A stretch of 33,150 nt of DNA, taken from the NCBI GenBank assembly GCA_025359215.1, contig JANYHE010000125.1, positions 1 through 33,150 of the forward strand. The letters are read 5' to 3'. The notes below the pieces were generated by a model. That model searched no databases. It saw only the letters and a program-made list of their open reading frames with translations, and was not told the DNA's origin. Origin of the DNA: Hyphomicrobiales bacterium (GTDB lineage: Bacteria > Pseudomonadota > Alphaproteobacteria > Rhizobiales > Aestuariivirgaceae). Made by a program: the position numbers and the translations under genes. Within the stretch, counting starts at the first letter, position 1; each line of letters begins with the position of its first letter. Below, piece after piece: positions 1,728-26,956 of this stretch.

Positions 1728-2183
1728 ATGAGAGAAAAACTTCCAGAGCTGATGTTGCTTGCCTTTGCCGAGGCGAAGGCGGCGGCTGAGCGGGGTGAAG
1801 TTCCGGTGGGTGCTGTGATTGTGGATGCCAGTGGCCACGTGATTGCGGCGGCTGGTAATCGCACTTTGGAACTTAAAGATCCAACTGCTCATGCCGAGAT
1901 GCTGGCCATCCGTGTGGCGGCGCAGACCCTATCATCTGAGCGCCTGATTGATTGTGATCTCTACGTCACCCTGGAGCCCTGTGCCATGTGTGCAGCGGCC
2001 ATTTCATTTGCGCGGTTGCGGCGGATTTATTTTGCGACCGGTGATGAAAAGATGGGGGCTGTGGAACATGGGCCACGGTTTTTCAATCAAGCCACCTGCC
2101 ACCATGCGCCAGACGTTTATAGCGGCATTGGCGAGAGTCAGGGCCAAGAATTATTAAGATCGTTTTTTCAGTCGCGGCGTTGA
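1728..2183 (+). CDS. tadA: tRNA(adenine(34)) deaminase TadA
   Basis: This 151-residue zinc-dependent deaminase converts adenosine 34 of tRNA-Arg(ACG) to inosine in the cytoplasm. The cytidine/deoxycytidylate deaminase signature is complete: HAE at residues 55-57 (zinc ligand and proton-shuttle glutamate) and PCAMC at 84-88 (two zinc-ligand cysteines). The ATG at 1728 gives the usual family length; the frame continues upstream to 1572, but that part runs antisense through rsmD and is not conserved. No clear Shine-Dalgarno sequence precedes 1728, and an in-frame ATG at 1752 is an alternative. The 3' end overlaps the convergent pdeM gene by 16 bp. It is unrelated to the pilus ATPase that is also called TadA. 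Confidence 0.93.
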   Translation: MREKLPELMLLAFAEAKAAAERGEVPVGAVIVDASGHVIAAAGNRTLELKDPTAHAEMLAIRVAAQTLSSERLIDCDLYVTLEPCAMCAAAISFARLRRIYFATGDEKMGAVEHGPRFFNQATCHHAPDVYSGIGESQGQELLRSFFQSRR

Positions 2184-2971
2184 ACGCGTGACAGTGGGAA
2201 GCGATGAATGGCAGCTTGGCCAATCATCCAAGCGTGTGTTTCAGCTTCATTGAACAGCCCAGCGAAGGCTTTTGAAGTGATGGCAAGACCACCTGTATAA
2301 GCCCCAAAAGCGGGCATGATGAGACGGGTATTATCACCCACAAAACATTTACCATAAAGCCTGCGCCCACGCTGGGTGAGGCCGCAGCCGGGGTGCAGGT
2401 GGCCTGCGATTTCGAAATTGTCTTCTCTCCTTCTCCACGAAGTGGGGAAGGCGGCGCCCTTGCGCCGGATGGGGTGGCTCGAACTTAATGATTCGGCACC
2501 GAGATCCCCACCCGTCTCGCCTTGCGGCGATCCACCCTCCCCGCTCTGCGAGGAGGGAGAAGGAAGAGAAGGTTCGTGGCGTAGAGTGAGTGGGCCTAAG
2601 CTCAGTGACTCCGCACCTTGTCCACCAATCGCTTGCGGCGGTTCGGGATCGTGATTTCCGCAAATCCAAATTGTCTCATAAGAGCTTGTAATGTTTCGAA
2701 TGGTGATGAGATGGGTGTCATCCAACCTCGTTTCACCCTCGCCATCGTGAAAACTATCGCCTAGAAAAATTAATCGCTTCGGATTGGCAGCACTCACCAC
2801 CTCTTCCAAAAGTTTGAGCGTGATGGCTGTATCATAAGGTGGCACGTGAATACCGCGCCGTGCCAGACTGCTGCCCTGCTCCAAATGCAAATCAGCAATG
2901 ATCAGCGTTTCATAATCAGGCACATAGAGTGCGCCAGAAAAATCTGGGATCAGTTCCATGCCGCCCAGCAT
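2168..2971 (-). CDS. pdeM: Ligase-associated DNA damage response endonuclease PdeM (metallophosphoesterase) with in-frame palindromic insert
   Basis: This 267-residue calcineurin-type metallophosphoesterase belongs to the family found beside Lhr helicases and DNA ligases; a DNA-repair nuclease role is inferred from that family. The metal-site motifs are all present: DLH at residues 27-29, GD at 71-72, GNHD at 105-108 and GHLH at 190-193. Between RHEP (131-134) and the GHLH motif lies an extra stretch of 50 residues (about 135-184), rich in Ser, Gly and Arg, encoded by an imperfect palindromic repeat at 2422-2571. The family normally has only a short loop here. The ATG at 2971 lies 13 bp after the lhr stop; an ATG at 2959 is also possible. 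The frame is open further upstream inside lhr, but that part is not conserved. Whether the protein is active is unknown. Confidence 0.88.
   Translation of the reverse strand: MLGGMELIPDFSGALYVPDYETLIIADLHLEQGSSLARRGIHVPPYDTAITLKLLEEVVSAANPKRLIFLGDSFHDGEGETRLDDTHLITIRNITSSYETIWICGNHDPEPPQAIGGQGAESLSLGPLTLRHEPSLPSPSSQSGEGGSPQGETGGDLGAESLSSSHPIRRKGAAFPTSWRRREDNFEIAGHLHPGCGLTQRGRRLYGKCFVGDNTRLIMPAFGAYTGGLAITSKAFAGLFNEAETHAWMIGQAAIHRFPLSRVQRRD
2422..2571. repeat. 150-bp imperfect palindromic element inserted in frame in pdeM
   Basis: The ends are near-perfect inverted repeats, CTTCTCTCCTTCTCC on the left and GGAGAAGGAAGAGAAG on the right, differing by one base in spacing. Inside are further short hairpins: CTTCTCCAC/GTGGGGAAG at 2431-2449, GGCGC/GCGCC around 2454-2466, CGCC/GGCG around 2518-2529 and CCTCC/GGAGG around 2536-2555. 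The unit is 150 bp, exactly 50 codons, with no stop in the pdeM frame. I infer a non-autonomous palindromic repeat of the REP/MITE type: similar CCTTCTCC-type palindromes are common between genes in Rhizobiales, and insertion inside genes recalls Rickettsia palindromic elements. I see no other copy in this window. Confidence 0.72.
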
Positions 2972-2984
2972 AATCTTATGGGTT

Positions 2985-5444
2985 TTAGACAAGCCTTGTG
3001 GCCTCGGAGATGAGTTCGTCAGCAGCTTCGGCGAGAAGGGCATCATGGGCATCGCCGTAAATTGATTCGCGCCCAATCTCAAGCAGCACCGGAACCGCCA
3101 AGGGTGAAACCCGCTCCAGCGCTTTATGCAGAATTTGATTTTTAATGCGCTTCAACATGGCCCCCAACCTGTGCACATCAATCATGCCCTCTGCTGCATC
3201 ATCCCATGCGGCCCGCAATAAAATATGATCGGGCTGATGGGTGCGCAAAGCATCATAAATTAAATCGGTGTTCACAGTCACTTGCCGCGCCGTTTTTTGC
3301 TTGCCAGGATAATTACGCTCGATGAGGCCCGCGATGATGGCGCAGTTTCTAAAGGTGCGTTTCATCAAATTGGATTCCGCCAACCATGCATCCAAATCAT
3401 CGCCTAACATGTCTTCATCAAAAAGTTTGGCGAGCGAAAGTTTGCCGCTGGCAATCATGGCCGACATGTCGCCAAGACTCCAAATGACTAAAGCATATTC
3501 CGAGGCCACAAAACCCATGGGCTTGGCGCCCCAACGCTCTAATCGCCTCGTGAGTAACATGCCCAGCGTTTGCTGCGCCAAGCGGCCTTCGAAGGGGTAG
3601 CACACCAGATAGTGTTTATCGGCACGGGGGAAGGTTTCGACCAGCATTTGGTCGGCCCGTGGCAGGGCAGAAGCCCAGCTTTGGGTGTTGAGCCAGTCTT
3701 GCACTTGGTGCGGAAGAAATTGCTGTTTAGATTTATCAGCAAGAATTCCACGCACCCGTTCAGCCAAATAAGTTGAGAGCGGAAACTTGCCACCATTATA
3801 AGACGGGATCATCGGGTCGCGGCCCGGCGCACGGGTGGCCAGAGCGCCAAATTCATCGAGCCCCTCAAAGCGCAGCACTTCGCCTGAAAATAAAAACGTG
3901 TCACCAATGCGCAATTGGGAGAGGAAATATTCTTCCAGTTCGCCCAGAACGCGGCCCCCTGTGACCACGCGCTTGCCTAAACGGTTGCGAACCCCTGCAA
4001 TGCGGAGCTTTAGCATTTCAGCACCAATAATAGTGCCCATGTTCATTTTATAACGCTGGGCCAAAAGCGGATGGGCAAGGCGAAATTTGCCTGAAGAATC
4101 ACGCTTGAGTTTCGCATAACGCTCATAGGCTTTCAGCGCATATCCACCCGTGGCCACATAGTCTAAAGTCTGATCAAAAAGTTCGCGACTGAGTTTGCGG
4201 TAGGTGAAGGCCGACGTGACTTCAGTATAAAGCTGATCAACATCAAAGGGAGCCGCACAAGCACAGCCCAAAATATGTTGGGCCAGCACATCCAATTTCA
4301 TCACAGTTGGATATTCTGAATCTTGCGCGCCTTCAGCAGCTGCATGGCGGGCGGCTTCACATTCCAAAACTTCAAACCGATTGGAAGGCACCAGCATGGC
4401 ATTGCTGGATTCATCCAAACGGTGATTGGCGCGACCAATGCGTTGCAGCAAACGCGACGACCCTTTGGGTGCTCCCACATGCACTACAAAATCGACATCC
4501 CCCCAATCAATGCCGAGGTCCAAAGTGGAGGTGCAGACCACAGCTTTAATTTTATTGTCGGCCATGGCCGCTTCCACTTTGCGGCGCTGGGCCACATCCA
4601 ACGAACCATGGTGCAAAGCGATGGGCAGATTATCTTCATTGGCCGTCCATAATTCTTGGAAAACCATTTCGGCTTGGCTGCGGGTGTTCACAAAAATCAA
4701 AGACATTTTGGCTTTTTTAATCTCCGCATAGATTTCTGGAATGGCATAGACGGCGCGGTGGCCGCTCCATGGCACGCGCTCAGCGGATTCAAGAATACGA
4801 ATTTTGGGTGGGGCACCTGCATTACCGAACACCAGTTGCGTCGATGGTGAAAGCCATTGTTTAAGCGCATCTGGGTCTGCCACTGTGGCTGAAAGTCCTG
4901 TGAAGCGGGCTTTTGGCGCGTGCGATTTTAATCGCGTTAGCGCAAGTGATAACAACACGCCACGCTTGTTGCTCACCACAGAATGAAGCTCATCAATGAT
5001 CACCGCTTTTAAACTGCGCAGCAAATGCGCGGCTGTGGGATCAGCAATCAGCAAAGAGACTTGTTCTGGTGTGGTGATCAAAATATCAGGCGGAATAATG
5101 CGCTGCCGCTGGCGGCGCGAATGGGGTGTGTCGCCTGTCCTCGTTTCTACGGTGATGGGCAATTTCATTTCCGCAATGGGTGCTTCAAGATTGCGGGCAA
5201 TATCCACCGCCAATGCTTTCAGTGGAGAAATATAAAGTGTGTGAATACCTGAGGTTTCGTGAGGCTCTGCGAGTTCTACCAATGTGGGCAAGAAGCCCGC
5301 CAAAGTTTTGCCGCCGCCGGTTGGCGAAATCAGCAGCGTGTTTTCGTTGTTAAGGCCCAGCTCCAACATGTGCAATTGATGGGTACGCGGCTGCCAGCCA
5401 CGCTCCGAAAACCACTGCACAAATGATGTTGGTAAAAGACTCAT
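2985..5444 (-). CDS. lhr: Ligase-associated DNA damage response DEXH-box helicase (Lhr-like)
   Basis: This 819-residue superfamily 2 helicase is predicted to unwind DNA, or RNA-DNA duplexes, during repair in the cytoplasm. It has the Lhr-core layout: a RecA1 domain with Walker A SPTGGGKT at residues 40-47 and the DEXH box DELH at 151-154, then a RecA2 domain with VCTSTLDLGIDWGDVD and QRIGRANHR, followed by a winged-helix/Lhr C-terminal region. The ATG at 5444 (MSLLPTSF) was preferred over an upstream in-frame start at 5504, because the extra 20 residues lack similarity and would overlap the divergent MATE gene. pdeM follows 13 bp downstream, forming the known two-gene unit; the ATP-dependent ligase and exonuclease that often accompany it are absent here. 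Confidence 0.93.
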   Translation of the reverse strand: MSLLPTSFVQWFSERGWQPRTHQLHMLELGLNNENTLLISPTGGGKTLAGFLPTLVELAEPHETSGIHTLYISPLKALAVDIARNLEAPIAEMKLPITVETRTGDTPHSRRQRQRIIPPDILITTPEQVSLLIADPTAAHLLRSLKAVIIDELHSVVSNKRGVLLSLALTRLKSHAPKARFTGLSATVADPDALKQWLSPSTQLVFGNAGAPPKIRILESAERVPWSGHRAVYAIPEIYAEIKKAKMSLIFVNTRSQAEMVFQELWTANEDNLPIALHHGSLDVAQRRKVEAAMADNKIKAVVCTSTLDLGIDWGDVDFVVHVGAPKGSSRLLQRIGRANHRLDESSNAMLVPSNRFEVLECEAARHAAAEGAQDSEYPTVMKLDVLAQHILGCACAAPFDVDQLYTEVTSAFTYRKLSRELFDQTLDYVATGGYALKAYERYAKLKRDSSGKFRLAHPLLAQRYKMNMGTIIGAEMLKLRIAGVRNRLGKRVVTGGRVLGELEEYFLSQLRIGDTFLFSGEVLRFEGLDEFGALATRAPGRDPMIPSYNGGKFPLSTYLAERVRGILADKSKQQFLPHQVQDWLNTQSWASALPRADQMLVETFPRADKHYLVCYPFEGRLAQQTLGMLLTRRLERWGAKPMGFVASEYALVIWSLGDMSAMIASGKLSLAKLFDEDMLGDDLDAWLAESNLMKRTFRNCAIIAGLIERNYPGKQKTARQVTVNTDLIYDALRTHQPDHILLRAAWDDAAEGMIDVHRLGAMLKRIKNQILHKALERVSPLAVPVLLEIGRESIYGDAHDALLAEAADELISEATRLV

Positions 5445-5471
5445 GAACTGGAACTTGACGCAGACAGAGCG

Positions 5472-6803
5472 GTGACGCAACACCATGCTATGAAACTCAC
5501 GCACCGTTCAGTTTTGGCTATCGCCATTCCCATCACGCTTTCAAATGTCACTGAGCCTTTGATAGGCGTGGTGAACACGACCGTGATTGGGCAATTGCCC
5601 GAGGCCCATTATATTGGAGCGGTTTCGGCGAGCACGTTGATCTTTTCATTTTTGTTTTGGGGCTTTGGATTTTTACGGCTTTCAACGGGTGGGCTTTCAG
5701 CGCAAGCCGTTGGCGCTAAGGATGATGCGGAATTGGCAGCGGTGTTTTGGCGCAGCTTTTCGCTGGCAGTGGCCATTGGGTTGGCACTTTTGCTGGCCAG
5801 CCCGCTTATCGGCAAGCTTGCCTATAGCCTGATTGGTGGATCTAATGAAATTCGCACCGAAGGTCTCACTTATTTTAATTATCGTATTTGGTCGGCACCC
5901 GCTGCGCTGGCCAATTTCAGCATTTTGGGTTGGTTCGTTGGGCAAGCGCGGGCCAAATTTGCATTTTACACGCAGGTGTTTCTCAATGTTGTCAACATGA
6001 GCCTCAGTGCCTATTTGGTTTTGGTGTTGCACATGAATGTGGCTGGCGTGGGATTGGCGGCGGTGATTGCGGAATACGCCGCCGTGATTTTAGGGTTGGT
6101 GTTTGTGGCGCGACGCATGCGGTCCTTAAACGAGCGGTTCGACAGCACTCGGGTTTTTAATGCAACCAAGCTGCTCTCCACACTCAGTTCCAACGGTGAT
6201 ATTATGATCCGCACTTTGTGCCTGCTGTTTGCGTTTGCATGGTTCACAGCGCGTGGCGCGCGGGCTGGCGATTTGGTGATTGCTACCAATGCGGTGCTGC
6301 TCAATTTTTTTGAGATGTCAGCCTATTTGATTGATGGTTTTAGCTATGCGGCTGAGTCTTTGGTGGGGCAAGCGGTGGGGGCTAAAAATCGTCCTCAGTT
6401 TTGGCAGGCAATCAAACTCACAACCGGATGGGCCATGGTGCTGGGTGCTTTGTGCAGCTTTATCATTTGGCTTGGTGGGCCATGGTTTATTGATTATATG
6501 GCTGTGAATCCCGAAGTGCGCTCAATGGCGCGAGAGTATTTGGGTTGGACAATATTGCTGCCAATTATATCTGTGATCTGCTTTCAGTTTGACGGCATTT
6601 TTACAGGGGCCATGGCCACGCGCGACATGCGCAATATGATGGCGCTTTCGCTGGGCATTTATATGATCAGTTGGTGGTTCCTTGAGCGCAGTTTTGGCAA
6701 TCACGGGTTGTGGGCTTCGCTCAATATATTTCTATTGGCCCGCACAATAAGCTTTGCTGCGCGAGTGCCAGCAATCGAAAGAACTGCGTTTCAAACCGCT
6801 TGA
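5472..6803 (+). CDS. MATE family (DinF-like) multidrug efflux transporter
   Basis: This inner-membrane protein of about 443 residues is predicted to have 12 transmembrane helices and to export organic cations or metabolites using an ion gradient. The N-terminus (RSVLAIAIPITLSNVTEPL) and the internal SYAAESLVGQAVGAKN match the MATE family, DinF branch. The start is uncertain: GTG at 5472 or ATG at 5490 (MKLTHRSVL), neither with a strong Shine-Dalgarno sequence. Only about 27-45 bp separate it from the divergent lhr start, so promoters must overlap the coding ends. The 3' end overlaps the convergent TerB-family gene by 13 bp. The substrate cannot be told from sequence. Confidence 0.9.
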   Translation: MTQHHAMKLTHRSVLAIAIPITLSNVTEPLIGVVNTTVIGQLPEAHYIGAVSASTLIFSFLFWGFGFLRLSTGGLSAQAVGAKDDAELAAVFWRSFSLAVAIGLALLLASPLIGKLAYSLIGGSNEIRTEGLTYFNYRIWSAPAALANFSILGWFVGQARAKFAFYTQVFLNVVNMSLSAYLVLVLHMNVAGVGLAAVIAEYAAVILGLVFVARRMRSLNERFDSTRVFNATKLLSTLSSNGDIMIRTLCLLFAFAWFTARGARAGDLVIATNAVLLNFFEMSAYLIDGFSYAAESLVGQAVGAKNRPQFWQAIKLTTGWAMVLGALCSFIIWLGGPWFIDYMAVNPEVRSMAREYLGWTILLPIISVICFQFDGIFTGAMATRDMRNMMALSLGIYMISWWFLERSFGNHGLWASLNIFLLARTISFAARVPAIERTAFQTA

Positions 6804-10691: not shown

Positions 10692-12311
10692 ATGACCACC
10701 TCTCCCACCCTTCGCGCTGCTGCACTGGAATCAAAGGCTTGGCCTTTTGAAGAGGCGCGGAAGATTTTGAAACGGGTTGAGAAATCGGGGCAAAAGTCGG
10801 TGCTGTTTGAAACCGGTTATGGCCCTTCAGGCCTGCCGCATATTGGCACATTCGGCGAAGTGTCGCGCACCACCATGGTGCGCCGTGCCTTTGAACTGAT
10901 GAGCGATGTGCCCACCCGGCTTCTGGTGTTTTCTGATGACATGGACGGAATGCGGAAGATTCCGGATAATGTGCCTGATAAGTCGTTCCTTGAGCCCCAT
11001 TTGCACAAGCCACTCACATCGGTGCCTAATCCATTCGACGGAGATTACGAAAGTTTTGGCCATCATAATAATGCGATGTTGCGGCGGTTCTTGGACACGT
11101 TTGGTTTTCAATATGAGTTTGGCTCCGCCACAGATTATTACAAGTCTGGCAAATATGATGACATGCTTATTCGTGCGCTGGAAAAGTATGACGATATTAT
11201 GGGAGTCATGCTCCCCAGCTTGGGCGAAGAACGCCAAGCCACTTACTCACCCTTCCTGCCGATCTCGCCGATTTCGGGCCGTGTGCTTTATGTGCCGATG
11301 AAAGCCATTGACGCTAAAAAAGGCACCATCACTTTCGCCGAGGAAGATGGGACCGATGTTACCCTCGATGTGCGCGGCGGGCGCACCAAACTGCAATGGA
11401 AGCCTGATTTTGGTATGCGTTTTGCGGCTTTGGGTGTAGATTTTGAGATGTTCGGCAAGGACCATCAATCCAATGCACCAATCTATGATCGCAATTGCGA
11501 AATTTTGGGCGGCATTGCGCCAGAACATTATGTTTATGAATTATTCTTGGATGACAAAGGCCAAAAGATTTCAAAATCTAAAGGCAATGGGCTCACCATT
11601 GATGAATGGCTGACTTATGCGGACCCTGACTCCCTTTCGCTCTATATGTATAACCGCCCACGCGAGGCCAAGAAATTATTCTTTGATGTGATCCCGCGCG
11701 CGGTTGATGAATATGCGCAACATTTGGCGGGTTATCAAAAGCAGACTGAACCCAAAGACCACTTGATGAACCCCGTCTGGCATATTCACGGCGGCAACCC
11801 GCCGAAGCCCGAAACGGGTGGAGTGACTTTTGCGTTGCTGCTCAATTTGGTTTCCGTGGCCAATACTGAAGATAAGGCAGTTTTGTGGGCCTTCCTCAAG
11901 CGCTATATGCCAGAGATGGATGCGGCCACACATCCGCGGCTTGATAAAATGGTGGGTTATGCCATTCGCTATTATTTAGATTTCATAAAGCCCAACAAAA
12001 CCTATCGTCCGTGCACAGATGATGAAGCGAAAGCTTTGGCTGATTTGAATGCGGCCTTGGGAGAGTTGCCCGAAGGTTCAACACCAGAAGCCATTCAACA
12101 AAAGGTCTACGACATAGGGCGTCGCGAGCCTTATACGGTCACGCAAAAAGATGGCACCATTGGTGTGGGGCAAACATGGTTCAACATGCTCTATCAAGTT
12201 CTGCTCGGTGAAGAACGCGGGCCACGATTTGGGTCATTCGCGGCCCTTTATGGTTTGAGCAATACGCGTGGGCTGATTGATAAGGCCCTGAAGGGTGAGT
12301 TGGGGAAATAA
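10692..12311 (+). CDS. lysK: Lysyl-tRNA synthetase, class I
   Basis: This 539-residue enzyme charges tRNA-Lys with lysine. It is the archaeal-type class I enzyme rather than the class II LysS of E. coli: the Rossmann-fold HIGH signature appears as PHIGT at residues 49-53 and the KMSKS loop as KISKSKG at 292-298, and the class II motifs are absent. Class I LysRS is the usual form in alphaproteobacteria, so this supports the taxonomic reading and does not suggest recent transfer. The gene is full length, with an ATG preceded by AGGA at 8-bp spacing. It stands alone between a divergent helicase and a convergent regulator gene 23 bp downstream. Confidence 0.96.
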
Positions 12312-17090: not shown

Positions 17091-18065
17091 TTATTTCGAG
17101 TGCATCACAGTGATGATAGATGGACCTAGAATAACCACGAAAATTACAGGTAGAAAGAACAGAATCATCGGAACGGTCAGTTTTGGTGGCAGGGCTGCTG
17201 CTTTTCTTTCAGCTTCAGACATGCGTTCATTGCGGTTTTCTTGAGCCAGAACCCGCAATGCAGAACCCAAAGGTGTGCCGTATTTTTCAGATTGGATAAG
17301 ACTCGTCACGACGGATTTCACAGTTTCCAATCCGGTGCGCTTGCTCAGATTGTCGAGAGCCTTTTTGCGATCTTGCAGAAATGAAAGTTCAGCCACAGTG
17401 AGCGTCATTTCTTCAGCAAGCGGCACCGACTGACTACCGATTTCCTTTGCAACACGTTGCATAGCAGGCTCAAGCGCCATGCCTGATTCCACGCAGATCA
17501 GCAGCAGATCGAGTGCGTCAGACCACGCTTTTTTAATCGAAGCTTGTCGCTTTTTCGTGATGTTGGAAAGAGCCAAGTTCGGGATATAGAAACCAGCGAC
17601 CAAACCTAAGATGGCTGAGACGATGCGCATATTCGGTGCAACTTTCTCGGCATAGACTGTCGATGTATACACAAATATTAGAATTGCCAAAATGATCGGG
17701 ATGATCATGCGCAAAGCGAGGAATGTCATCAGATTATTTTCTGATCTGAAGCCAGCGCGGCGCAGTCTTTCGCGAGAGGATTCTGCTTCGAAGATTTTAC
17801 GTAAATTGAGAGATTCAACCAAGCGGGCATAGATTCCGCGCTTAGCTTTGTCACGCAGCTTCACTGGGCCCGATGACGCTGCAAATTGTGCTCTTTGTTG
17901 CTGTTTGAGTTTGTCACGTTCATCAGTCACAAGCTTCATGCGGCTTTTGAGTTTGTCGCCATCAAAAAGCGGAGCGGCGAGAGCAATCACTGTTCCAAAT
18001 GCCGCAAGACTGGCAAGGATCGTGATGATCATTTCTATTTTGAGAATGCTGGTTATGAAGTTCAT
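17091..18065 (-). CDS. tadC: Tad pilus inner-membrane platform protein TadC
   Basis: This 324-residue type II secretion system F-domain protein forms, with TadB, the inner-membrane platform on which the Flp pilus is assembled. It has an N-terminal hydrophobic helix, a basic cytoplasmic stretch, two central helices (about 115-165), the GspF/T2SSF domain with ESGMALEPAMQRVAKEIG, and a C-terminal membrane helix ending IITVMHSK. It is the last gene of the minus-strand cpaB-tadC run, 21 bp after tadB. A tadD lipoprotein/TPR gene often follows at this place but is absent; the next gene is the convergent glycosyltransferase 2 bp away. Confidence 0.93.
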   Translation of the reverse strand: MNFITSILKIEMIITILASLAAFGTVIALAAPLFDGDKLKSRMKLVTDERDKLKQQQRAQFAASSGPVKLRDKAKRGIYARLVESLNLRKIFEAESSRERLRRAGFRSENNLMTFLALRMIIPIILAILIFVYTSTVYAEKVAPNMRIVSAILGLVAGFYIPNLALSNITKKRQASIKKAWSDALDLLLICVESGMALEPAMQRVAKEIGSQSVPLAEEMTLTVAELSFLQDRKKALDNLSKRTGLETVKSVVTSLIQSEKYGTPLGSALRVLAQENRNERMSEAERKAAALPPKLTVPMILFFLPVIFVVILGPSIITVMHSK

Positions 18066-18086
18066 GGTTTGGACCTGTGATGCCGA

Positions 18087-19097
18087 TTACATCTGGAAAT
18101 TGATCATCTGGCGCATGACCAGAACACCAATTGTCATCCAAATTCCTGAACCGATTAAGAGCATGTTGCCCGTGCTGGTGTGGAAGAGGGCATTCAAATA
18201 GGTTGGATTTATCACAGTCAAAGCGCCGACCAACAAGAAAGGCAATGCACCAATGATGGCCGCCGAAGACTTTGCTTCCTGACTCACGGCGCGAACTTTA
18301 GCTTTCATCTTTTTCCGGTCGCGCAAAACACGTGACAAATTGCTGAGCGCTTCAGACAAGTTACCGCCTGTCTTGGACTGAATTGTCATCACGATTGAAA
18401 GAAAGTTTACTTCTGGCAATGGCATACGTTCAGTCATGCGTTCCATGCCCTGATCAACGGAAATGCCCAGGCGCTGGCCTTCAACAATTTCGGTGAATTC
18501 TGGACCAACTGGATCTCCAGTTTCTGTAGCAATAATTTTCATGGCTTCATTCAATGGCAGGCCCGATCTTAGACCGCGTACCATAACATCAATGGCATCA
18601 GCGAAATCATTTAGAAACTTGTTCTGGCGACGGATGCGCATGGTGCGGAGAACGTATTTTGGAAAACCCAGCAAACCCACAAAACCTGCTGCGGCAACAC
18701 CAATTAATGGCACGCCCAACATTAACGAACCAATTGAAAAACCAATTCCGCTTACAAAAGATGCGACCCAAAAAGCCCGGGGTGAAGCGTCAAGGCCGGC
18801 TTGTTGCATTTTTGTTGAAAGGGTAATCTTCTTCTTTTTCGATCTTTCTTTGTCAGCAACCTGATTTAAAGATTCTTGAATTTGCCGACGCCGCACGTCT
18901 TTGCTGTCTTCAGCAAAACGGGCACGAAACGAATTGCCGGTTGCCTCTGATTTTTTGCCGCTGCTGATGGCTTTGAGACGCCCCTTGGAAGAGTCTGCAG
19001 AAAATAGCGGGAAGAGAACGGCAATGGCCAGACCACCAACCGCAAGTGCTGCCATCACAATGAACGCGAGGCTTGTAAGGTCCTGTCCGAAAAACAT
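18087..19097 (-). CDS. tadB: Tad pilus inner-membrane platform protein TadB
   Basis: This 336-residue protein is the partner of TadC and a paralogue of it. It has an N-terminal transmembrane helix (residues about 8-32), a long basic and polar segment with KERSKKKK near 85, central helices, and the T2SSF domain with VMVRGLRSGLPLNEAMKIIATETGDPVG, ending in a C-terminal helix. AAGGGA precedes the ATG at the right distance. It follows cpaF after 19 bp and precedes tadC, the standard order. Confidence 0.94.
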   Translation of the reverse strand: MFFGQDLTSLAFIVMAALAVGGLAIAVLFPLFSADSSKGRLKAISSGKKSEATGNSFRARFAEDSKDVRRRQIQESLNQVADKERSKKKKITLSTKMQQAGLDASPRAFWVASFVSGIGFSIGSLMLGVPLIGVAAAGFVGLLGFPKYVLRTMRIRRQNKFLNDFADAIDVMVRGLRSGLPLNEAMKIIATETGDPVGPEFTEIVEGQRLGISVDQGMERMTERMPLPEVNFLSIVMTIQSKTGGNLSEALSNLSRVLRDRKKMKAKVRAVSQEAKSSAAIIGALPFLLVGALTVINPTYLNALFHTSTGNMLLIGSGIWMTIGVLVMRQMINFQM

Positions 19098-19116
19098 GAT
19101 TTCTTCCCTTTAATCT

Positions 19117-20613
19117 TTAGTCTTTTGCATCTCGCATTTCGGCCTTTTCAAGCGCTTCTGCGAGACGATGTTCTTCATTGTAATAGCGTGCACGATCCCA
19201 GAAATGGGGCCGGGCAATACCAGTCGAGCGATGTTGACCAATAATTTTTCCAGCGGCGTCCTCACCAACGATGTCATAAATGAACAGATCTTGGGTGATG
19301 ATCACATCACCTTCCATGCCCACAACTTCGGTGATGTGTGTGATTTTGCGTGAACCATCGCGCAGACGCGATGCCTGCACAATCACGTCAATCGAACCCA
19401 CAATCATTTCCTTGATGGTTTTGGATGGCAATGAGAACCCACCCATCGTGATCATCGATTCAAGACGCGATATGGCTTCACGCGGAGAGTTGGCGTGGAG
19501 TGTGCCCATTGATCCATCGTGGCCTGTGTTCATGGCCTGAAGCAAATCGAACGCTTCGGGTCCACGGACTTCGCCGACGATGATGCGTTCAGGACGCATA
19601 CGCAAGCAGTTCTTCACCAGCTCACGCATGGTGATGGCCCCTTCGCCTTCCAAATTCGGTGGGCGGGTTTCGAGGCGAACGACGTGCGGTTGTTGCAATT
19701 GAAGTTCAGCGGCGTCTTCGCAAGTGATAACGCGTTCTTCGAGATCAACATAACCCGTGAGACAGTTCAGCAGCGTAGTTTTTCCTGAACCCGTACCACC
19801 AGAAATCAAAACATTGCAACGCACACGCCCGATGATTTCGAGAATCGTTGCACCTTCTGGCGTGATCGATTTGAACTTCACCAAATCAGGAAGACGCAAG
19901 CGATCTTTCTTAAATTTACGAATGGTCAGTGCGGCACCATCGATGGCCAGCGGAGGCACAATCACGTTAACACGTGAACCATCAGGTAAACGCGCATCGC
20001 ATATCGGGCTTGCTTCATCCACACGGCGGCCCACTTGGCTCACGATGCGTTGGCAGATGTTCAAGAGTTGCGAATTGTCGCGAAAGCGTACGCCCGTCTT
20101 TTGCATCTTTCCATCAACTTCGATGAAAACAGCATTGGCACCATTGACCATGATGTCGGCGATATCATCGCGGGCCAACAAAGGCTCAAGCGGACCATAG
20201 CCCAATACGTCGTTACAAATATCTTCGAGCAATTCTTCCTGCTCGGCAATCGACATCACCACATCTTTAAGGGCAATGATTTCGTTCACAATGTCACGAA
20301 TTTCATCGCGCGCAGCATCGCGGTCCAATTGACCAAGCTGCGTGAGATCAATGGCATCAATCAATGCATTGAAAATTGTGCTTTTGATATCGTAATAGGA
20401 TTCCGATTTATGCTTGGCTTCAACTTCGACCGGTTTTGCCGGCGCTGGAGGAGCCACCTTTGGTGCAGCCACACCAGTGCCAAAACCTGCCGATCCACCG
20501 ATTTTTAAATCAGGAACACTCGCACCTGCTGCAGCCGCTGGATGGGCAGCCGCTGGCGATGGCGGCACATTAACTGTTGGGGTGTTACCGGAGTCGGTTC
20601 TTTTGCCGAACAT
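19117..20613 (-). CDS. cpaF: Tad pilus assembly ATPase CpaF (TadA-type)
   Basis: This 498-residue hexameric secretion ATPase powers extension, and in Caulobacter also retraction, of the Tad pilus. Residues 1-70 are a proline/alanine-rich flexible region. The core contains Walker A GGTGSGKT at 272-279, the acidic box CEDAAELQL at 298-306, Walker [10 protein letters not shown] at 343-351 and the His box [11 protein letters not shown] at 365-375. All catalytic motifs are intact. AAGGGA lies before the ATG. It sits between cpaE (12 bp upstream) and tadB. Another name for the family, TadA, should not be confused with the tRNA deaminase in this window. Confidence 0.96.
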
Positions 20614-20625
20614 TATTGTGGTCCC

Positions 20626-21891
20626 TTATTTCTTTTTCATCATGGGAAGTCTTTGCAACATCCCAGGCAGAGCAAATCGTGATGTCTTTACAGGCTTTTG
20701 TGTGCCCGCAATGGTTTCAGCCAAATCGAACATGATTTCAGCAGATTTGGATTTTGGAGCAACTTCAAAAACCATTTGACCATTGCCTTGAGCAAGACCA
20801 AAGCTTTGTGGATCATGCGGAATAATTGCTGAGGGTGAGAGGCCAAGGGCCTTGCCAAATTCAGCTGCTGGAATCTCTGGTCGCTTAGGCACGCCCACTT
20901 GGTTCAAAATCAGGCGCGGTTGACGATCATGCGGCCTTCCGGCTTTCAACATGTCCACCAGATTCTTGGCATTGCGCAAGCTTGGTAATTCTGGCGTTGC
21001 GGTGATGATAATGTCATCGGCGTTCAGCAATGTGTGTTTCACCCATGGTGCCCAAAGATTTGGCACATCCACCACAATCATTGGCGCACTGTGGCGCACA
21101 ACGTTGAGAACAGTTTCAACGGATTGGGCTTCAATATTGAATTCTTTGTCAATGCCACCAGGACCATTGAGCAGGCTCAGCTTATTGCCAAGCTTAGTCA
21201 TCAAACGCTCAATCAGCGTTCCATCAACGCGGTCTGGCTGGGTCAAGGCTTCAAAAATGCCGCCACCGCCATCTTGATTGAAGTTCAGTGAGGCAGTGCC
21301 AAAAGACAAATCAAGATCGGTGATCACAGTTTCAATATTGAGACGCTGTGAAATGGCCCAACCAATATTGTGAGCAATGGTGGAAGATCCCACGCCACCT
21401 TTGGAGCCGACGAACGCTACGATACGACCGAGGGGTGCCGATTTCGGATCGCTGAAGAGACCAGCAATGGTTTCGATCAATTGTGGAGCTGAAATGGGCG
21501 CTACAAGATATTCGCTAACGCCATTCTTCATCAGTTCGCGGTAGAGAATAACATCATTGATATGACCAATGACGACAACCTTGGTGTTGGGCTGGCACAC
21601 TTCAGCGAGTTGACCCAGTTCGGACATGATTTTGTTACGGTCGCCATGGGACTCGACCACAATCACGTTTGGCGTGGCCTCCGATTCATAAACCTGCGCT
21701 GCCGCAGCAACACCACCCAACTGGATAGTGACAGAAGCACGCGCCATGCGCCGATCAATGCTGGCAGCTTGGGCTGTTTCACCTGTTTGCTGATTGTCGC
21801 AGAATATCCCGATATTGATGCGAGGAACCAATGCTACAGGATAATGTTCTGTAGGTGCGGAAAGTTTGGGCTCTGTAGCTGCGATATTCAT
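20626..21891 (-). CDS. cpaE: Pilus assembly protein CpaE (TadZ; MinD/ParA-like)
   Basis: This 421-residue protein is predicted to direct the Tad machine to its cellular site, usually a pole. Residues about 25-150 form a receiver-like domain lacking clear phosphoacceptor chemistry, with MKNGVSEYLVAPISAPQLIETI as its end. The ParA/MinD ATPase follows, with the deviant Walker A KGGVGSST at 164-171; the first lysine, the signature residue, is present, while the usual second lysine is serine, as is common in CpaE/TadZ. Later motifs are TDLDLSFGT and VVDVPN. AGGA lies 8 bp before the ATG. The gap to cpaD is 50 bp. Confidence 0.94.
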   Translation of the reverse strand: MNIAATEPKLSAPTEHYPVALVPRINIGIFCDNQQTGETAQAASIDRRMARASVTIQLGGVAAAAQVYESEATPNVIVVESHGDRNKIMSELGQLAEVCQPNTKVVVIGHINDVILYRELMKNGVSEYLVAPISAPQLIETIAGLFSDPKSAPLGRIVAFVGSKGGVGSSTIAHNIGWAISQRLNIETVITDLDLSFGTASLNFNQDGGGGIFEALTQPDRVDGTLIERLMTKLGNKLSLLNGPGGIDKEFNIEAQSVETVLNVVRHSAPMIVVDVPNLWAPWVKHTLLNADDIIITATPELPSLRNAKNLVDMLKAGRPHDRQPRLILNQVGVPKRPEIPAAEFGKALGLSPSAIIPHDPQSFGLAQGNGQMVFEVAPKSKSAEIMFDLAETIAGTQKPVKTSRFALPGMLQRLPMMKKK

Positions 21892-21941
21892 TCGATATGT
21901 CCTGTCATGACCAAGTGGTCTTCAGATTTTAGGCAACGTGT

Positions 21942-22628
21942 TTAGTTAAAAATCGACCACCAAGGTGCGCTATCTCTGGAGGTATCTCTTTCGAGACCTC
22001 TGATGGCATTCACCCGTGTGTTGGCGCGGATGGGGTCGACGGCTGATGGCACAACCAATGTTTCTGGATCTGCAACCATGGCGGCAATGTTGGATTGAAC
22101 AGCGCAACCATGCGATGACATATGGGCGTTGTCTTCGGTCTCAGTTGCATCTTGCGTAACTTGGCCACAGGGCTTGGTTTTTGCATAGGTCGATATGTAG
22201 GAAACATGCACAGGTGCTGAAGCTGGGCCCGAATAAGTGCCTATGCGGATCATGTTTCGCGATACACCCTGTTGCGAGACCAGTGACGCAACTTCGCTTG
22301 CAACACGTGCCGAGGCACCGCCACCGCTGGGCCTGCTAATGGTGATGGGTGTAACGCCAGCCTGCTCGGCCTGATGAGCAAATCCTGAAACTGCATTGAC
22401 TTGAGCCGGAGACAACGTGCCTTGATGTGAATCCACATCCAAAGTGACTGGGCCTTTGGCAACGGTGATTGGATAAGCTTCCGAACCACTATAGGCTATG
22501 GGTTCAGCTGCTTGATCAGCAAAATTCCCGTCATTCAAGCAGCCCCCCAAAACTGAGGTTGAGAGCAGCAGCGTCGCAATGCCCATCCGGCGAATAATAT
22601 TAGTATTTAACTGTGACATGATACTCAT
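21942..22628 (-). CDS. cpaD: Pilus assembly lipoprotein CpaD
   Basis: This 228-residue outer-membrane-associated lipoprotein is thought to support the CpaC secretin. The signal peptide ends in the lipobox VLGGC, with the lipidated cysteine at residue 30. The CpaD pattern follows: PITISRPSGG in the middle, then HGCAVQSNIAAMVADPETLVVP and DPIRANTRV near the C-terminus. The ATG at 22628 lies just after the cpaC stop; another in-frame ATG at 22619 is possible. It lies between cpaC and cpaE in the operon. Confidence 0.92.
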   Translation of the reverse strand: MSIMSQLNTNIIRRMGIATLLLSTSVLGGCLNDGNFADQAAEPIAYSGSEAYPITVAKGPVTLDVDSHQGTLSPAQVNAVSGFAHQAEQAGVTPITISRPSGGGASARVASEVASLVSQQGVSRNMIRIGTYSGPASAPVHVSYISTYAKTKPCGQVTQDATETEDNAHMSSHGCAVQSNIAAMVADPETLVVPSAVDPIRANTRVNAIRGLERDTSRDSAPWWSIFN

Positions 22629-22633
22629 CCGCT

Positions 22634-24079
22634 TTACTCAACTATAAACCCGACATTGCCTTTGTAAGACCCTGAAGGGGCCTTGCCAGCACTGCCGTAG
22701 AGTTTGTTCATTCTGCCCATGAAAATCGCCTGTTTATCTGACACTGGAGCTATGTTTTCATCAGGTGACGAAAGCTGCTGTTGCGACACACTGCGCACGA
22801 TGTGCGGCGTTACGATCACCACCAATTCAGTTTCATTCTGGATAAAATCACGGCTTCTAAACAAGGCACCCAAAACTGGGAGCTGCTTCAAACCCGGTGT
22901 GCCATTGATATTTTGGCGGGTCGTTTCACGAATAAGACCAGCCATCATCATCGAACCACCGTTTGGCATTTCGAGCACGGAATCAATTGAGCGCTTGTTC
23001 AATCCGGGCACATTGGTGCTGCCTGAGAGGACTGTGTTCAACTCACTCGCGTCGGTATGAATTTTGAGATTGATGCGACCATCGCTCAGAACAATCGGCG
23101 TGAAGCTAAGACCCACACCAAATGATTTAAAGGCAATTTGGCAGGTTTGATTTGCGCCACTACCGTTACAAATTTGGTAAGGAAACTCTCCACCAGCCAG
23201 AAAGCTGGCGGGCTGACCAGACACTGCTGTTAGATTAGGTTCTGCCAAAGTGTGAAGCAGCCCATCACCTTCCATCGCAGTTATCAAGCTGTCAAAATTA
23301 CTGCCGCCGCTTGCGCCGGATGCTTTATAGCCACCCGTTGGGCTGAGCAATCCATTGGCAAAAGGATTAATACTGGCAAGGCTAAATGCAAACTTGCCCG
23401 TATCAATAAGTGCTCTGAAATTGATGCCAAACTGCTTTAGAACATCGCGCTGGATTTCAACGATTTTTACTTGCAACATCACTTGGTCTTCACCAGCGAT
23501 TTTGATGGTATTTACAATTTTCCCACCGCCAGCAAACCAAGAGGCTGAGTCAATAAACTGCATCGCCAAATCTTCAGCGGTTTTTGCCTCAGCAGCGTTC
23601 AGCGCCATGCCGCCAAGAACAACGTTCTTGCCCATCGTATCAATGGTAATCTGCGAACCCGGCATTGTGCGCTGCATGAGCTTCTTGAGAGGCATCGTGT
23701 CCAATGCCACTTCCAGATCTAGCGACATGATTTGCGTGCCGTTGGCATCAAAGAAGAAAATATTGGTTTGGCCGGGTTTCCGAGCAAACAAATAGGCAGT
23801 GTTCTTGGTCTTGATGACAGCATCAACCACATCAGGGTTGCCAACAACCACGTCCTTGGCATCGCCTGGGAGATGAATAACGATCGATTTATCAAGACCG
23901 ATGCGCACAAAGCGACTGGCGGAGCCTTCACTGGTTGCCGCGGGGGCCATATCTGTGGCCAGTGCGGGCACGGATACGGTGGGCGCGAAGACCAAAAGCG
24001 AGGCTAGTAAGGCTGCAGCACAGGATGAGATTTTCATAAGGCCAGCAACTTTAAGACTGATTGGGAATGTGTTTTTCAT
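22634..24079 (-). CDS. cpaC: Tad pilus outer-membrane secretin CpaC (RcpA)
   Basis: This 481-residue protein forms the outer-membrane channel for the Flp pilus. An N-terminal signal peptide ends near ALA at residues 40-42. Then come the pilus-formation N-domain (about 53-125, with VVVGNPDVVDAV and FARKPGQTNIFFFD), a BON/N-type domain, and the secretin domain with PNLTAVSGQPASFLAGGEFPY and VPGLNKRS ... MPNGGSMMMAGL. Near the end is TELVVIVTPHIV, typical of the secretin terminus. The first domain is homologous to the separate small protein encoded at 25754-26233. The start at 24079 could instead be the in-frame ATG at 24037. Confidence 0.95.
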   Translation of the reverse strand: MKNTFPISLKVAGLMKISSCAAALLASLLVFAPTVSVPALATDMAPAATSEGSASRFVRIGLDKSIVIHLPGDAKDVVVGNPDVVDAVIKTKNTAYLFARKPGQTNIFFFDANGTQIMSLDLEVALDTMPLKKLMQRTMPGSQITIDTMGKNVVLGGMALNAAEAKTAEDLAMQFIDSASWFAGGGKIVNTIKIAGEDQVMLQVKIVEIQRDVLKQFGINFRALIDTGKFAFSLASINPFANGLLSPTGGYKASGASGGSNFDSLITAMEGDGLLHTLAEPNLTAVSGQPASFLAGGEFPYQICNGSGANQTCQIAFKSFGVGLSFTPIVLSDGRINLKIHTDASELNTVLSGSTNVPGLNKRSIDSVLEMPNGGSMMMAGLIRETTRQNINGTPGLKQLPVLGALFRSRDFIQNETELVVIVTPHIVRSVSQQQLSSPDENIAPVSDKQAIFMGRMNKLYGSAGKAPSGSYKGNVGFIVE

Positions 24080-24089
24080 CTGGCTTTAC

Positions 24090-24914
24090 TCAATTGCTCG
24101 TAATATGATTTTCAACGCCATAGCGAACGACAAGCGTGTCGATGCCACCGCGGTGGGCTTTGCCGGAAAACTTATCGGTTAGTTCTGGCATAATATCTTT
24201 GAGGGCCTTGCCATCGTTTTCCGCGATGGAGCGCAACACCAGCGAAATTTCGCCTGTTGATTCAACCATGGCTATTACTTCTGTTTGCTGCGGTGTGAGC
24301 TCGAGTGTTGCAGTTTCATTTTTTTCAACAGTTACTGCTTCACCTTCAGTGGCCTTGTTGTAAATCTGGTTGATAGCAAGCACTCGGACATTGGTGATCA
24401 CAGTATCGCTTCTCACCAGAGTGATACCGCTGTCATTGGTCTTTTTGGTCAGAATGAGATCAACACGGTCATCTGGCAAAATGAACCCGCCGGCTGACGA
24501 ATGATTTGAAATTGAAACGGATGCAGCGCGCATGCCCTTGGCCAACATTGCGCCCATGAAGCCACCATCACCTGGGTTTAACACCTTTTTGTCGAGCACA
24601 ACTTCGCCATCATAGAGTGCAACACGGGCGCGCGAGGTTGCCATTTCTTGTAAAGCATCTGGTTTGGCGTCTTTTGTCACCATTGAAGGCTGCAGGTTAT
24701 CTTTCGGCCAAGCTTTCCAAACCAAAGTGCCATCGACGAATTTTTCGCCCAAATGGATATCTTTGGCGGCCACAAGCACATCCACAGTTTTCACTGTGTT
24801 CACTTCAACAACTTTTTCTTCTTGTTTCTTTCCAAGAACGCCCTTGGCAAGAAGCCCCGCCATAATGGCTGAGGCTAAAGCCACCGCAAACATCACCAAA
24901 CGCATTTTACTCAT
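24090..24914 (-). CDS. cpaB: Tad pilus assembly protein CpaB (RcpC)
   Basis: This 274-residue protein has one N-terminal membrane anchor and a SAF domain (about residues 42-105, VLVAAKDIHLGEKFVDG), followed by the RcpC-type periplasmic region with VSISNHSSAGGFILPDDRVDLILT. It is thought to stabilise or regulate the CpaC secretin, possibly by binding peptidoglycan. The ATG at 24914 has GAGGAA at 6-bp spacing; a TTG at 24920 in the same frame was rejected for that reason. It is the first gene of the cpaB-tadC operon. The preceding gap to cpaA contains one GTTAACCTT motif read on this strand. Confidence 0.93.
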   Translation of the reverse strand: MSKMRLVMFAVALASAIMAGLLAKGVLGKKQEEKVVEVNTVKTVDVLVAAKDIHLGEKFVDGTLVWKAWPKDNLQPSMVTKDAKPDALQEMATSRARVALYDGEVVLDKKVLNPGDGGFMGAMLAKGMRAASVSISNHSSAGGFILPDDRVDLILTKKTNDSGITLVRSDTVITNVRVLAINQIYNKATEGEAVTVEKNETATLELTPQQTEVIAMVESTGEISLVLRSIAENDGKALKDIMPELTDKFSGKAHRGGIDTLVVRYGVENHITSN

Positions 24915-24920
24915 ATTCAA

Positions 24921-25009
24921 TTCCTCACACGGTGCGCCGCACCAACTGAAACTTAACTTTGTGACTTAAATGTCAAATTAAGGTTAACAAAAATCAGTGC
25001 TCACCAAAC
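24921..25009 (-). promoter_or_regulatory. Probable promoter/regulatory region of cpaB operon
   Basis: This 89-bp AT-rich gap separates cpaA from cpaB. It contains GTTAACCTT on the minus strand at 24980-24988 and, just downstream, TTAATTTGACATTTAA, which resembles the spaced TTAA half-sites bound by CtrA but with the wrong spacer (8 instead of 7). The assignment is by inspection only. No pilin gene fits in this gap. Confidence 0.35.
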
Positions 25010-25525
25010 TTAGACAATTGCGTGCATCCACCAGCTGTCTTTAAACGCGATTATGCCGCCCACTGCGAACGCCAGCCCATAGGGAACATTTGGTTTTAAA
25101 GAGAACAGACGTTTACCAAAACTGGCCATTTTCAAATCTGAGGCGTGAATATCCCAATGCATGGCGACAACGGACCAGAGGCCTACAAAAACCGCCAAGA
25201 GGCCGCCCGCCAATGCAGTCATGAATAGGAACGGCAATGCCTGCGCGCTGCCAAACCACAGCCCGGCTGCCGCCATCAACTTGGCATCGCCGCCGCCGAA
25301 CAAACCAAATTGAAAGAACATGAAGCCGGCCATGAATAGACCCACCCCAACCGCCAAGTGAATGCCAAACTCGTGCAGCGGCATGCCTGTGATCCATGCC
25401 ATAGGAAAGAAAAGTGCTGCTGTTAAGATGTTCAGCCAATTGGGAATGCGAAGTGATAAAACATCGGATGCTGCCGCAATGATGAGCAATATTGGGAGGA
25501 GAGAGTTTGAGAGTATCTGCAACAT
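25010..25525 (-). CDS. cpaA: Prepilin peptidase CpaA (TadV)
   Basis: This 171-residue inner-membrane aspartic protease removes the leader peptides of Flp pilin and of the TadE/TadF pseudopilins. It is an A24-type peptidase without the methyltransferase domain. The two catalytic aspartates are visible: D21 (in ASDVLSLRIPNW) and D80 in GGGD at 77-80. There are about five to six membrane helices. The frame is open to a GTG at 25606, but the ATG at 25525 gives the family start. It is separated from cpaB by 89 bp and diverges from the pilus N-domain gene. Confidence 0.93.
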   Translation of the reverse strand: MLQILSNSLLPILLIIAAASDVLSLRIPNWLNILTAALFFPMAWITGMPLHEFGIHLAVGVGLFMAGFMFFQFGLFGGGDAKLMAAAGLWFGSAQALPFLFMTALAGGLLAVFVGLWSVVAMHWDIHASDLKMASFGKRLFSLKPNVPYGLAFAVGGIIAFKDSWWMHAIV

Positions 25526-25753
25526 TTGTAAGCGGTCCAAAAGTTCACAATTTGAGAATTGCACTTCAAAACTGAAGCGGGTTAGACCGAAGATCACATG
25601 GCGCACGTAAAGACGGAGTTAACCTTGACAAAAACTTTCAAAAGAAATTGGAACCCATTCTAAGCGACTTGGTAACTTTAGATTCACCATTGTTAGTTAA
25701 CCTTACTCACTTAGTGCAAAGGCTGTGTTGGCCTGTGGTTAAGGAAATGTGTG
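25526..25753. promoter_or_regulatory. Divergent intergenic region between cpaA and the pilus N-domain gene
   Basis: These 228 bp hold no convincing gene on either strand, specifically no Flp pilin. GTTAACCTT occurs twice on the plus strand, at 25618-25626 and 25696-25704. TTGACA is present at 25625-25630, but the -10 position at normal spacing is poor. AAGGAA at 25741-25746 is the ribosome-binding site of the downstream gene. The region presumably drives both arms of the pilus locus. Confidence 0.5.
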
Positions 25754-26233
25754 ATGAAAATTGGTTTTTGGTCCAATGTCGCGGCAATGCTCATGCTCGG
25801 ATTTGGTGCTCATTCGGCGCTCGCCGGGGAGCCACTATCGATTAAAACTGATAGTTCATTGTTGATGACAATCTCTGCTGAGCCTGGCACAGTGGTGATC
25901 GGAAACCCCTCAATTGCCGACGTCACCATGAACGGCAAGCAAATTTTCATCCACGGTCGCGCCTTTGGCGAAACCAATTTGTTGATCCTTGATACTGGTG
26001 GAAGCCAGATTGCCAATTTTGATGTTACTGTTGTTGAGAATAACTCAAACATCGTTACGGTTTACCGTGGCACTGTGCACAATACCTTCTCATGTGCACC
26101 AAATTGTAACCCGACCATGATGGTTGGTGACGATAACCTCGAGAAAATTATCTCCCAGAATATTTCTAAAAACCTGTTTGCAACGGGTAAAATATTTGCC
26201 GAGGGTACAAAGGTCAATTCACCTCCACAGTGA
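25754..26233 (+). CDS. Secreted pilus assembly N-terminal domain protein (CpaC N-domain homologue)
   Basis: This 159-residue periplasmic protein has a signal peptide (hydrophobic stretch, then SALA|GE near residue 24). The mature part is a stand-alone pilus-formation N-terminal domain: GTVVIGNPSIADVTM and FGETNLLILDTGGSQIANFDV align with the matching part of the CpaC secretin in this locus. After it comes a tail with CAPNC (C-x3-C) and GDDNLE, common in alphaproteobacterial members. It is probably an accessory of the Tad secretin; this is inferred from homology and position. The ATG at 25754 has AAGGAA at 7-bp spacing; a GTG one codon upstream is possible. It diverges from cpaA and is followed after 138 bp by tadE. 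Confidence 0.84.
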   Translation: MKIGFWSNVAAMLMLGFGAHSALAGEPLSIKTDSSLLMTISAEPGTVVIGNPSIADVTMNGKQIFIHGRAFGETNLLILDTGGSQIANFDVTVVENNSNIVTVYRGTVHNTFSCAPNCNPTMMVGDDNLEKIISQNISKNLFATGKIFAEGTKVNSPPQ

Positions 26234-26371
26234 AGATTGACTAACAAAACTACTATTCGTTCAATTTTTAATGAAGTTGTTCAAATCTCCATAATCTTAG
26301 ACTGCTAAAGTGACGATATCGATTTAGATCTGCTTTGGCAGTTCGCCTGTCGTCCGTTAGGGGAAAGCATT

Positions 26372-26953
26372 ATGTTAAAAACAATTGGACGCCTGTTTTC
26401 GCGTCACATGAAACGCTTTGCAAAAGCCGAGAGTGGCGTTGTTGCCGTCGAATTCGCAATCGTAGCCTTGCCCTTCATTACACTTCTGGGAGTTATTCTC
26501 GAGACGGGCATTGTGTTGTTTGTCGAATATACTTTGCAAGCCAGCGTTCAAGAAGCTGCACGTTTGGTGCGAACCGGGCAAGCGCAAGCGGGGGCATATT
26601 CTCCGTCTGACTTCAAAGCCAAAGTTTGCAAGACGGCAGATTTGTTGATTGATTGCAGCGGCAAAGTTTCTATCTATATGGCCTCGAATACGAGCTTTGC
26701 AGCTCTTAAAGCGGCTCTGCCTTCGTTTTTAAATGTCGGACTTAAAGTGGACGGCACTGCAAATGCCACGTCTTATTCCTGTGGTGGTCCATTGCAGACA
26801 ACCGCAGTTGTTGCCACCTATGATTGGAAATTGCTCATGCCCGGCATGAGCTACATGGGAAATTTCAATGGTGACACTGTTCGTAGAATTGTGGGATTTG
26901 CAATGTTCCAAAACGAGCCTTTCCCTTCAGGCACAACGTGCAAGGCGAGTTAA
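26372..26953 (+). CDS. tadE: TadE-like pseudopilin
   Basis: This 193-residue minor pseudopilin has a short basic leader, the prepilin cleavage site ESG|VVAVEFA near residues 20-27 with the conserved glutamate at +5, then a hydrophobic helix (about 25-50). The C-terminal part is a periplasmic domain with four cysteines. It should be processed by CpaA and is needed for pilus assembly in studied Tad systems. AGGGGAAAG precedes the ATG. Three bases separate it from the tadF-like gene. The distinction between TadE and TadF is by order and leader type only. Confidence 0.88.
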   Translation: MLKTIGRLFSRHMKRFAKAESGVVAVEFAIVALPFITLLGVILETGIVLFVEYTLQASVQEAARLVRTGQAQAGAYSPSDFKAKVCKTADLLIDCSGKVSIYMASNTSFAALKAALPSFLNVGLKVDGTANATSYSCGGPLQTTAVVATYDWKLLMPGMSYMGNFNGDTVRRIVGFAMFQNEPFPSGTTCKAS

Positions 26954-26956
26954 ATC

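Follow-up and report, generated by a model that had tools for sequence, protein, structure and literature searches.

An in-frame REP/BIME-like palindromic repeat inside pdeM of a Hyphomicrobiales bacterium, probably tolerated as a loop of the protein

Background

Does a dispersed palindromic repeat that comes to lie inside a protein-coding gene destroy the gene, or can it be read through as protein sequence? This question is raised by the pdeM gene of a Hyphomicrobiales bacterium (assembly GCA_025359215.1, contig JANYHE010000125.1), in which a palindrome separates the codons of two conserved motifs, RHEP and GHLHP, of a ligase-associated DNA damage response endonuclease. A preliminary description, made from the DNA letters, had pointed to a 150-bp palindromic repeat at 2422-2571, inserted in frame and adding 50 residues to the nuclease. 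Here we analysed the window, i.e. the whole stretch of 33,150 nucleotides, together with the rest of the genome and related genomes. The features at the locus are collected in Table 1.

Table 1. Features at the pdeM locus (coordinates are those of the window)
Feature	Coordinates	Strand	Basis and remarks
Two-armed palindromic repeat (REP/BIME-like), conserved core	2428..2564	+	BLAST copies, covariance model, terminal arms, alignment
Net insertion of 132 bp (44 codons, residues about 175-218)	2429..2560	-	Orthologue alignment; placement +/- few bases
pdeM, ligase-associated DNA damage response endonuclease	2168..3082	-	304 aa called from TTG, true start uncertain
Ligase-associated DEXH-box helicase	2985..5504	-	TIGR04121, 1083.3 bits; upstream neighbour of pdeM

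Results

The host gene

The pdeM open reading frame (ORF) scores 194.9 bits against TIGR04123, for which the NCBI curated cut-off is 150, and this places its product in the PdeM family. The product also matches PF00149 (23.8 bits, cut-off 21.5), and among solved structures, chains 6nvo and 6nvp of nuclease MPE are closest to it in sequence (phmmer, E 1e-14). As called, the ORFs of pdeM and of the DEXH helicase overlap. Residues D64, H66, D109, N143, H144, H169, H228 and H230 of PdeM are invariant in all 12 aligned sequences; as in other metallophosphoesterases, they would be the metal ligands. The view that all visible metal ligands remain despite the insert holds as regards the residues.

On the + strand, an ORF that by eye resembles a nucleoside deaminase ends at 2183 and converges with pdeM, whose stop codon occupies 2168-2170, giving a 16-bp overlap (2168-2183). 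Further along the window, a 539-aa ORF (10692-12311) resembles, by eye, a class I lysyl-tRNA synthetase, and 17091-27544 a Tad/Flp pilus cluster with ATPase, secretin, prepilin peptidase and TadE-like proteins.

A palindromic repeat with many copies in the genome

The 150 bp first delimited do start with CTTCTC and end with GAGAAG, but their outer bases have no clear conservation among copies of the repeat, and the conserved, GC-rich core is smaller (Table 1); it is bounded by a perfect 9-nt terminal inverted repeat (2428-2436 and 2556-2564). The internal hairpins that had been noticed are borne out by folding: as a single strand, 2415-2580 reaches -41.7 kcal/mol, compared to -29.07 (sd 3.35) for 200 shuffles (z -3.77), none of which folds as well as the real sequence. 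The pdeM frame is free of stop codons across 2422-2571, as described. An Rfam scan of 2200-2800 gave no match, and no direct or inverted repeats of at least 40 bp were found within the window, the other copies of the element being situated on other contigs.

A 166-bp query against the genome itself (3,024,979 bases in 148 contigs) found 29 BLAST matches, counting that of the window. The highest-scoring of the others has 80% identity over 145 bp, and identity rises to 94% in shorter matches. From 15 copies a covariance model was built, with a consensus structure of 35 pairs; it returned 64 rows, which after merging of the strands correspond to 31 full-length places and three partial ones. As 150 of the 738 first-look candidates were scored, the number of full-length copies is at least 31. 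Of these, 19 score at least 107 bits, and the remaining 12, at 27.6-89 bits, belong in part to another subfamily. Aligned, the copies share an architecture of two inverted REP-like arms around a variable middle. The preliminary description had staked its reading on the presence of other copies in the genome, and at least 30 further full-length ones were found.

Own genome included, nine of 61 genomes have a BLAST match at E 0.001, one of which (G030) has 15, and model matches at E 1e-10 occur in 14 of 37 genomes (own included, G030 being outside the 37), all below the best of the own genome. The distribution is patchy: G016 is rich in copies, with 38 model rows that are weaker than the best of the own genome, while G003 and G021, whose PdeM is closer to that of the window, have none at E 1e-10 among the 88 candidates scored in each. 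A 7.5-kb stretch on another contig of the own genome (C47:7846-15352) holds four full-length copies (L136, L019, L018, L013) and a 36-bp piece, adjoining ORFs that by eye resemble phage or gene-transfer-agent head and tail genes.

Position of the copies relative to genes

By a greedy choice of flanking ORFs, 14 of the 31 copies lie between unidirectional ORFs, 8 between convergent and 2 between divergent ones, 3 are undecided and 4 are inside an ORF; six copies partially overlap an ORF as called, and at 26 at least one flanking ORF begins or ends within 20 bp of the repeat. The four counted as inside consist of the pdeM locus, where the greedy choice took the wrong overlapping frame, and three copies in ORFs of 80-142 aa beside long neighbours. 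With family scans covering the ORFs of pdeM and its neighbours, and the ORFs beside other copies judged by eye, the copy in pdeM is alone among the 31 in lying clearly within a recognised gene. This suggests that in-gene insertions are mostly lost.

Two candidates for a second in-gene copy, at C47:14018 and C131:12414, are spanned by stop-to-stop ORFs that extend 70 codons or more to either side; they were rejected by eye, because neighbouring ORFs begin or end beside the repeat. Among copies in other genomes (27 loci, or 25 after removal of two duplicates), six spanning ORFs of at least 200 aa, reaching 30 codons or more beyond the repeat in either direction, were found at L156, L158, L168 and L172, and these were likewise set aside since their frames look by eye antisense or low-complexity.

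The copy in pdeM has four of its six frames open, compared to a mean of 2.97 for the 31 copies, and the trimmed core is divisible by three in length in 8 of the 31. Given these numbers, a neutral landing in frame is not very unlikely.

Relatives carry an empty site

A PdeM match was obtained in 55 of 61 genomes, own included, and among the matches listed none of those from the other 54 genomes covers residues 178-216. The two halves of PdeM were both located in 52 other genomes, 35 of the same genus and 17 at order level. At the site of the insert, all 35 same-genus genomes (of 36, G022 being left out as a fragment of residues 1-37 only) have 6-8 residues, compared to 51 in the window, from which follows a net gain of about 44 residues, rather than the 50 first proposed; the bases gained and the repeat have the same ends, give or take a few bases (Table 1). 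The site is likewise empty in all 29 aligned same-genus orthologues. At order level, 16 of the 17 genomes have 5-8 residues and G043 has an estimated 18, its first match ending early. The expectation that close relatives lack the added residues is thereby confirmed, and the same loop was not seen in any of the 52 genomes with both halves located, 51 of which have 5-8 residues at the site.

A distant Hyphomicrobiales orthologue (L069:3001-3690) has a somewhat longer PdeM loop at the same site, made of other residues, so that this loop of PdeM seems to tolerate changes in length.

An insertion that is probably translated and tolerated

The reading that we favour, with a probability of roughly 0.88, is that a repeat of the REP/BIME kind was inserted in pdeM and is translated as a loop of about 44 residues, which the still constrained enzyme tolerates. 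The two-armed palindrome would have entered the short loop that joins the RHEP strand to the GHLHP strand, presumably by transposition through an activity supplied in trans. With a net length divisible by three and four of its six frames open, the insert would be translated as about 44 extra residues. The resulting loop would have no function of its own, and the enzyme would remain active and under purifying constraint. In favour of this, the repeat occurs in many copies, relatives have an empty site, the frame is open, the motifs are intact and the host protein is at an ordinary distance from other orthologues. As counterpoints, the sequence comes from an assembly in 148 contigs, and neither a target-site duplication nor a mobilising enzyme was found. 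In AlphaFold2 models made from 12-row alignments, the protein with the insert and an insert-free relative (L060) have an identical series of 19 strands and helices, with a mean pLDDT of 74.8 and 82.2, respectively. Residues 177-220 form a low-confidence coil (pLDDT below 50); AlphaFold2 confidence is low for any stretch without homologues, so this is expected and proves little. The insert is predicted to be a flexible Ser/Gly/Arg-rich loop beside the active-site strands, between RHEP and GHLHP, in line with the preliminary description.

An alternative is that the insertion inactivated pdeM, leaving a young pseudogene in which by chance no stop has yet arisen. In-gene insertions look selected against, with a single clear case in a recognised gene among 31 full-length copies, and this one is located beside conserved active-site strands. 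Moreover, the part of PdeM after the insert is 0.68-0.70 identical to that of its three nearest relatives, the insert-free L031-L033, which are 0.85-0.99 identical among themselves; before the insert no such contrast is seen between the window and L033 (0.64, against 0.66 for L031-L033). The lower C-terminal identity could reflect a faster-changing C-terminal part in the lineage of the window, but the distances to eight other same-genus orthologues do not support this: after the insert, the mean divergence from these eight is 0.418 for the PdeM of the window and 0.417-0.424 for L031-L033, and before it 0.383 and 0.407-0.417, respectively. The 81 residues from E224 on are open and no further from these eight orthologues than those of the insert-free relatives, and every invariant residue is kept. 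Nor is the insertion evidently recent: of 118 scored sites in the pdeM copy, 105 (89%) agree with the consensus of 14 other copies, for which the agreement is 77-95%. Where dS could be computed for pdeM, it is near saturation and dN is well below it. Taken as sequence evidence, and short of proof, these comparisons indicate that pdeM is under constraint and not decaying; the gene probably still functions, the insert being a spacer that is tolerated, and we consider inactivation improbable.

Equally improbable, in our judgement, is that the insert has been recruited, its loop or mRNA hairpin tuning the substrate binding or the translation of pdeM, an option to which its location between the RHEP and GHLH strands, the Arg residues in the loop and the strong folding of the DNA strand lend some appeal. 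Against recruitment, the 13 differences of the pdeM copy from the repeat consensus are spread over codon positions 1, 2 and 3 as 5/4/4, without bias, and in the 35 same-genus genomes where both halves were located no such loop exists. The even split, small as the numbers are, fits a spacer in which the residues would not be constrained.

Very unlikely is an artefact in which a copy of the repeat was spliced into pdeM at assembly, even though repeats commonly cause misjoins and the genome is in 148 contigs. One copy (C96) does have an exact run of 41 bp in common with the copy in pdeM, but in the other 29 of the 30 copies compared the longest such run is 24 bp, and the best-scoring copy is 80% identical. 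Furthermore, a misjoin would be needed on both sides, yet the flanks continue one gene in frame, with a net 44 codons.

Least probable of all is that the mRNA hairpin is skipped by programmed ribosome bypassing, or is removed, to give a PdeM of normal size, the repeat then being a mobile, tolerated 'byp'-like element.

Discussion

Translation of the inserted repeat as a tolerated loop would provide a clean before-and-after case, with the empty site preserved in 35 same-genus genomes, of a dispersed palindrome becoming protein sequence, here in a DNA-repair enzyme of an environmental alphaproteobacterium. It makes the mere tolerance of such inserts directly testable on one soluble nuclease. The preliminary description is confirmed in its observation and supported in its interpretation, with the corrections given above. 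Among the titles and abstract beginnings of the literature on REPs and palindromes (partly on Hyphomicrobiales and on in-gene repeats) and on PdeM or MPE, no report of a repeat in pdeM was found.

Compared to the nuclease MPE of 6nvo and 6nvp, the protein belongs to the same family by TIGR04123 and phmmer, and its gene adjoins that of the ligase-associated DEXH helicase; it differs by the approximately 44 additional residues between RHEP and GHLHP.

As to the repeat, its many dispersed copies (31 full-length places) that fold as stem-loops, and their mostly intergenic position close to gene ends, are features of the REP/BIME type. REPs carrying a GTAG or CGTC tag are described as having this terminal tag beside a stem of about 6-9 bp, which is 8-9 bp in CGTC REPs (PMC3733652, in the part available). 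By eye, a CGTC in the 3' arm of the present repeat precedes a stem of 4-5 bp, followed by TCCA, and the repeat does not clearly fit either definition. Of the terminal inverted repeats and target-site duplications that characterise MITEs, perfect 9-nt terminal arms are present, and duplications were not seen by eye at the ends of the 31 copies.

The Y1 transposase of RAYT-type systems (PF01797) was considered as mobiliser and rejected. It gave no match at E 0.001 in the own genome, which is 99.2% complete, and of the 41 genomes searched 11 possess it. G003 and G021 each have a Y1 transposase; with 88 of about 600 candidates scored per genome, neither showed a repeat at E 1e-10. G016 has a Y1 transposase and many repeats.

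Within the Hyphomicrobiales, Br-REP1 of Bradyrhizobium japonicum was first found in the overlapping 3' ends of convergent genes (PMC5082802). Both repeats comprise several palindromes and occupy intergenic regions of a Hyphomicrobiales genome, but the core printed for Br-REP1 is by eye unlike the repeat of the window, and the terms 'intragenic' and 'inside genes' are absent from the main text of that paper.

Rickettsia palindromic elements (RPEs) had been proposed as a parallel, being found in frame inside apparently functional genes, with many in-gene copies in Rickettsia conorii (PMC3733652, in the part available). The parallel applies to the in-frame insertion of a palindromic repeat into what appears from its sequence to be a functional gene; it does not extend to lineage or frequency, with one clear in-gene copy out of 31 here compared to many in R. 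conorii.

Another close likeness is to the intragenic REPs of the same source. REPs are presented there as small palindromic repeats that often form dimers and are mainly found in the intergenic space of unidirectional or convergent gene pairs; many of those inside genes reside in genes for DNA synthesis and repair, and the in-gene dimers or groups code in most cases for 20-30 residues and some clusters for 43-82 (PMC3733652, in the part available). The present family shares the small palindromes, the mostly intergenic position between unidirectional or convergent pairs and the presence inside a gene, and differs in its unclear GTAG/CGTC fit; the search of this genome for a Y1 (RAYT-type) gene likewise found none. 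The part of that paper available does not name pdeM among the hosts of in-gene REPs. Such in-gene events are uncommon and have already been described in other bacteria (PMC3733652, same part); to the many in-gene REPs in repair genes the present locus adds one case, which cannot by itself carry a claim. It is an in-gene dimer of the REP type, a known phenomenon, here in another gene and another lineage.
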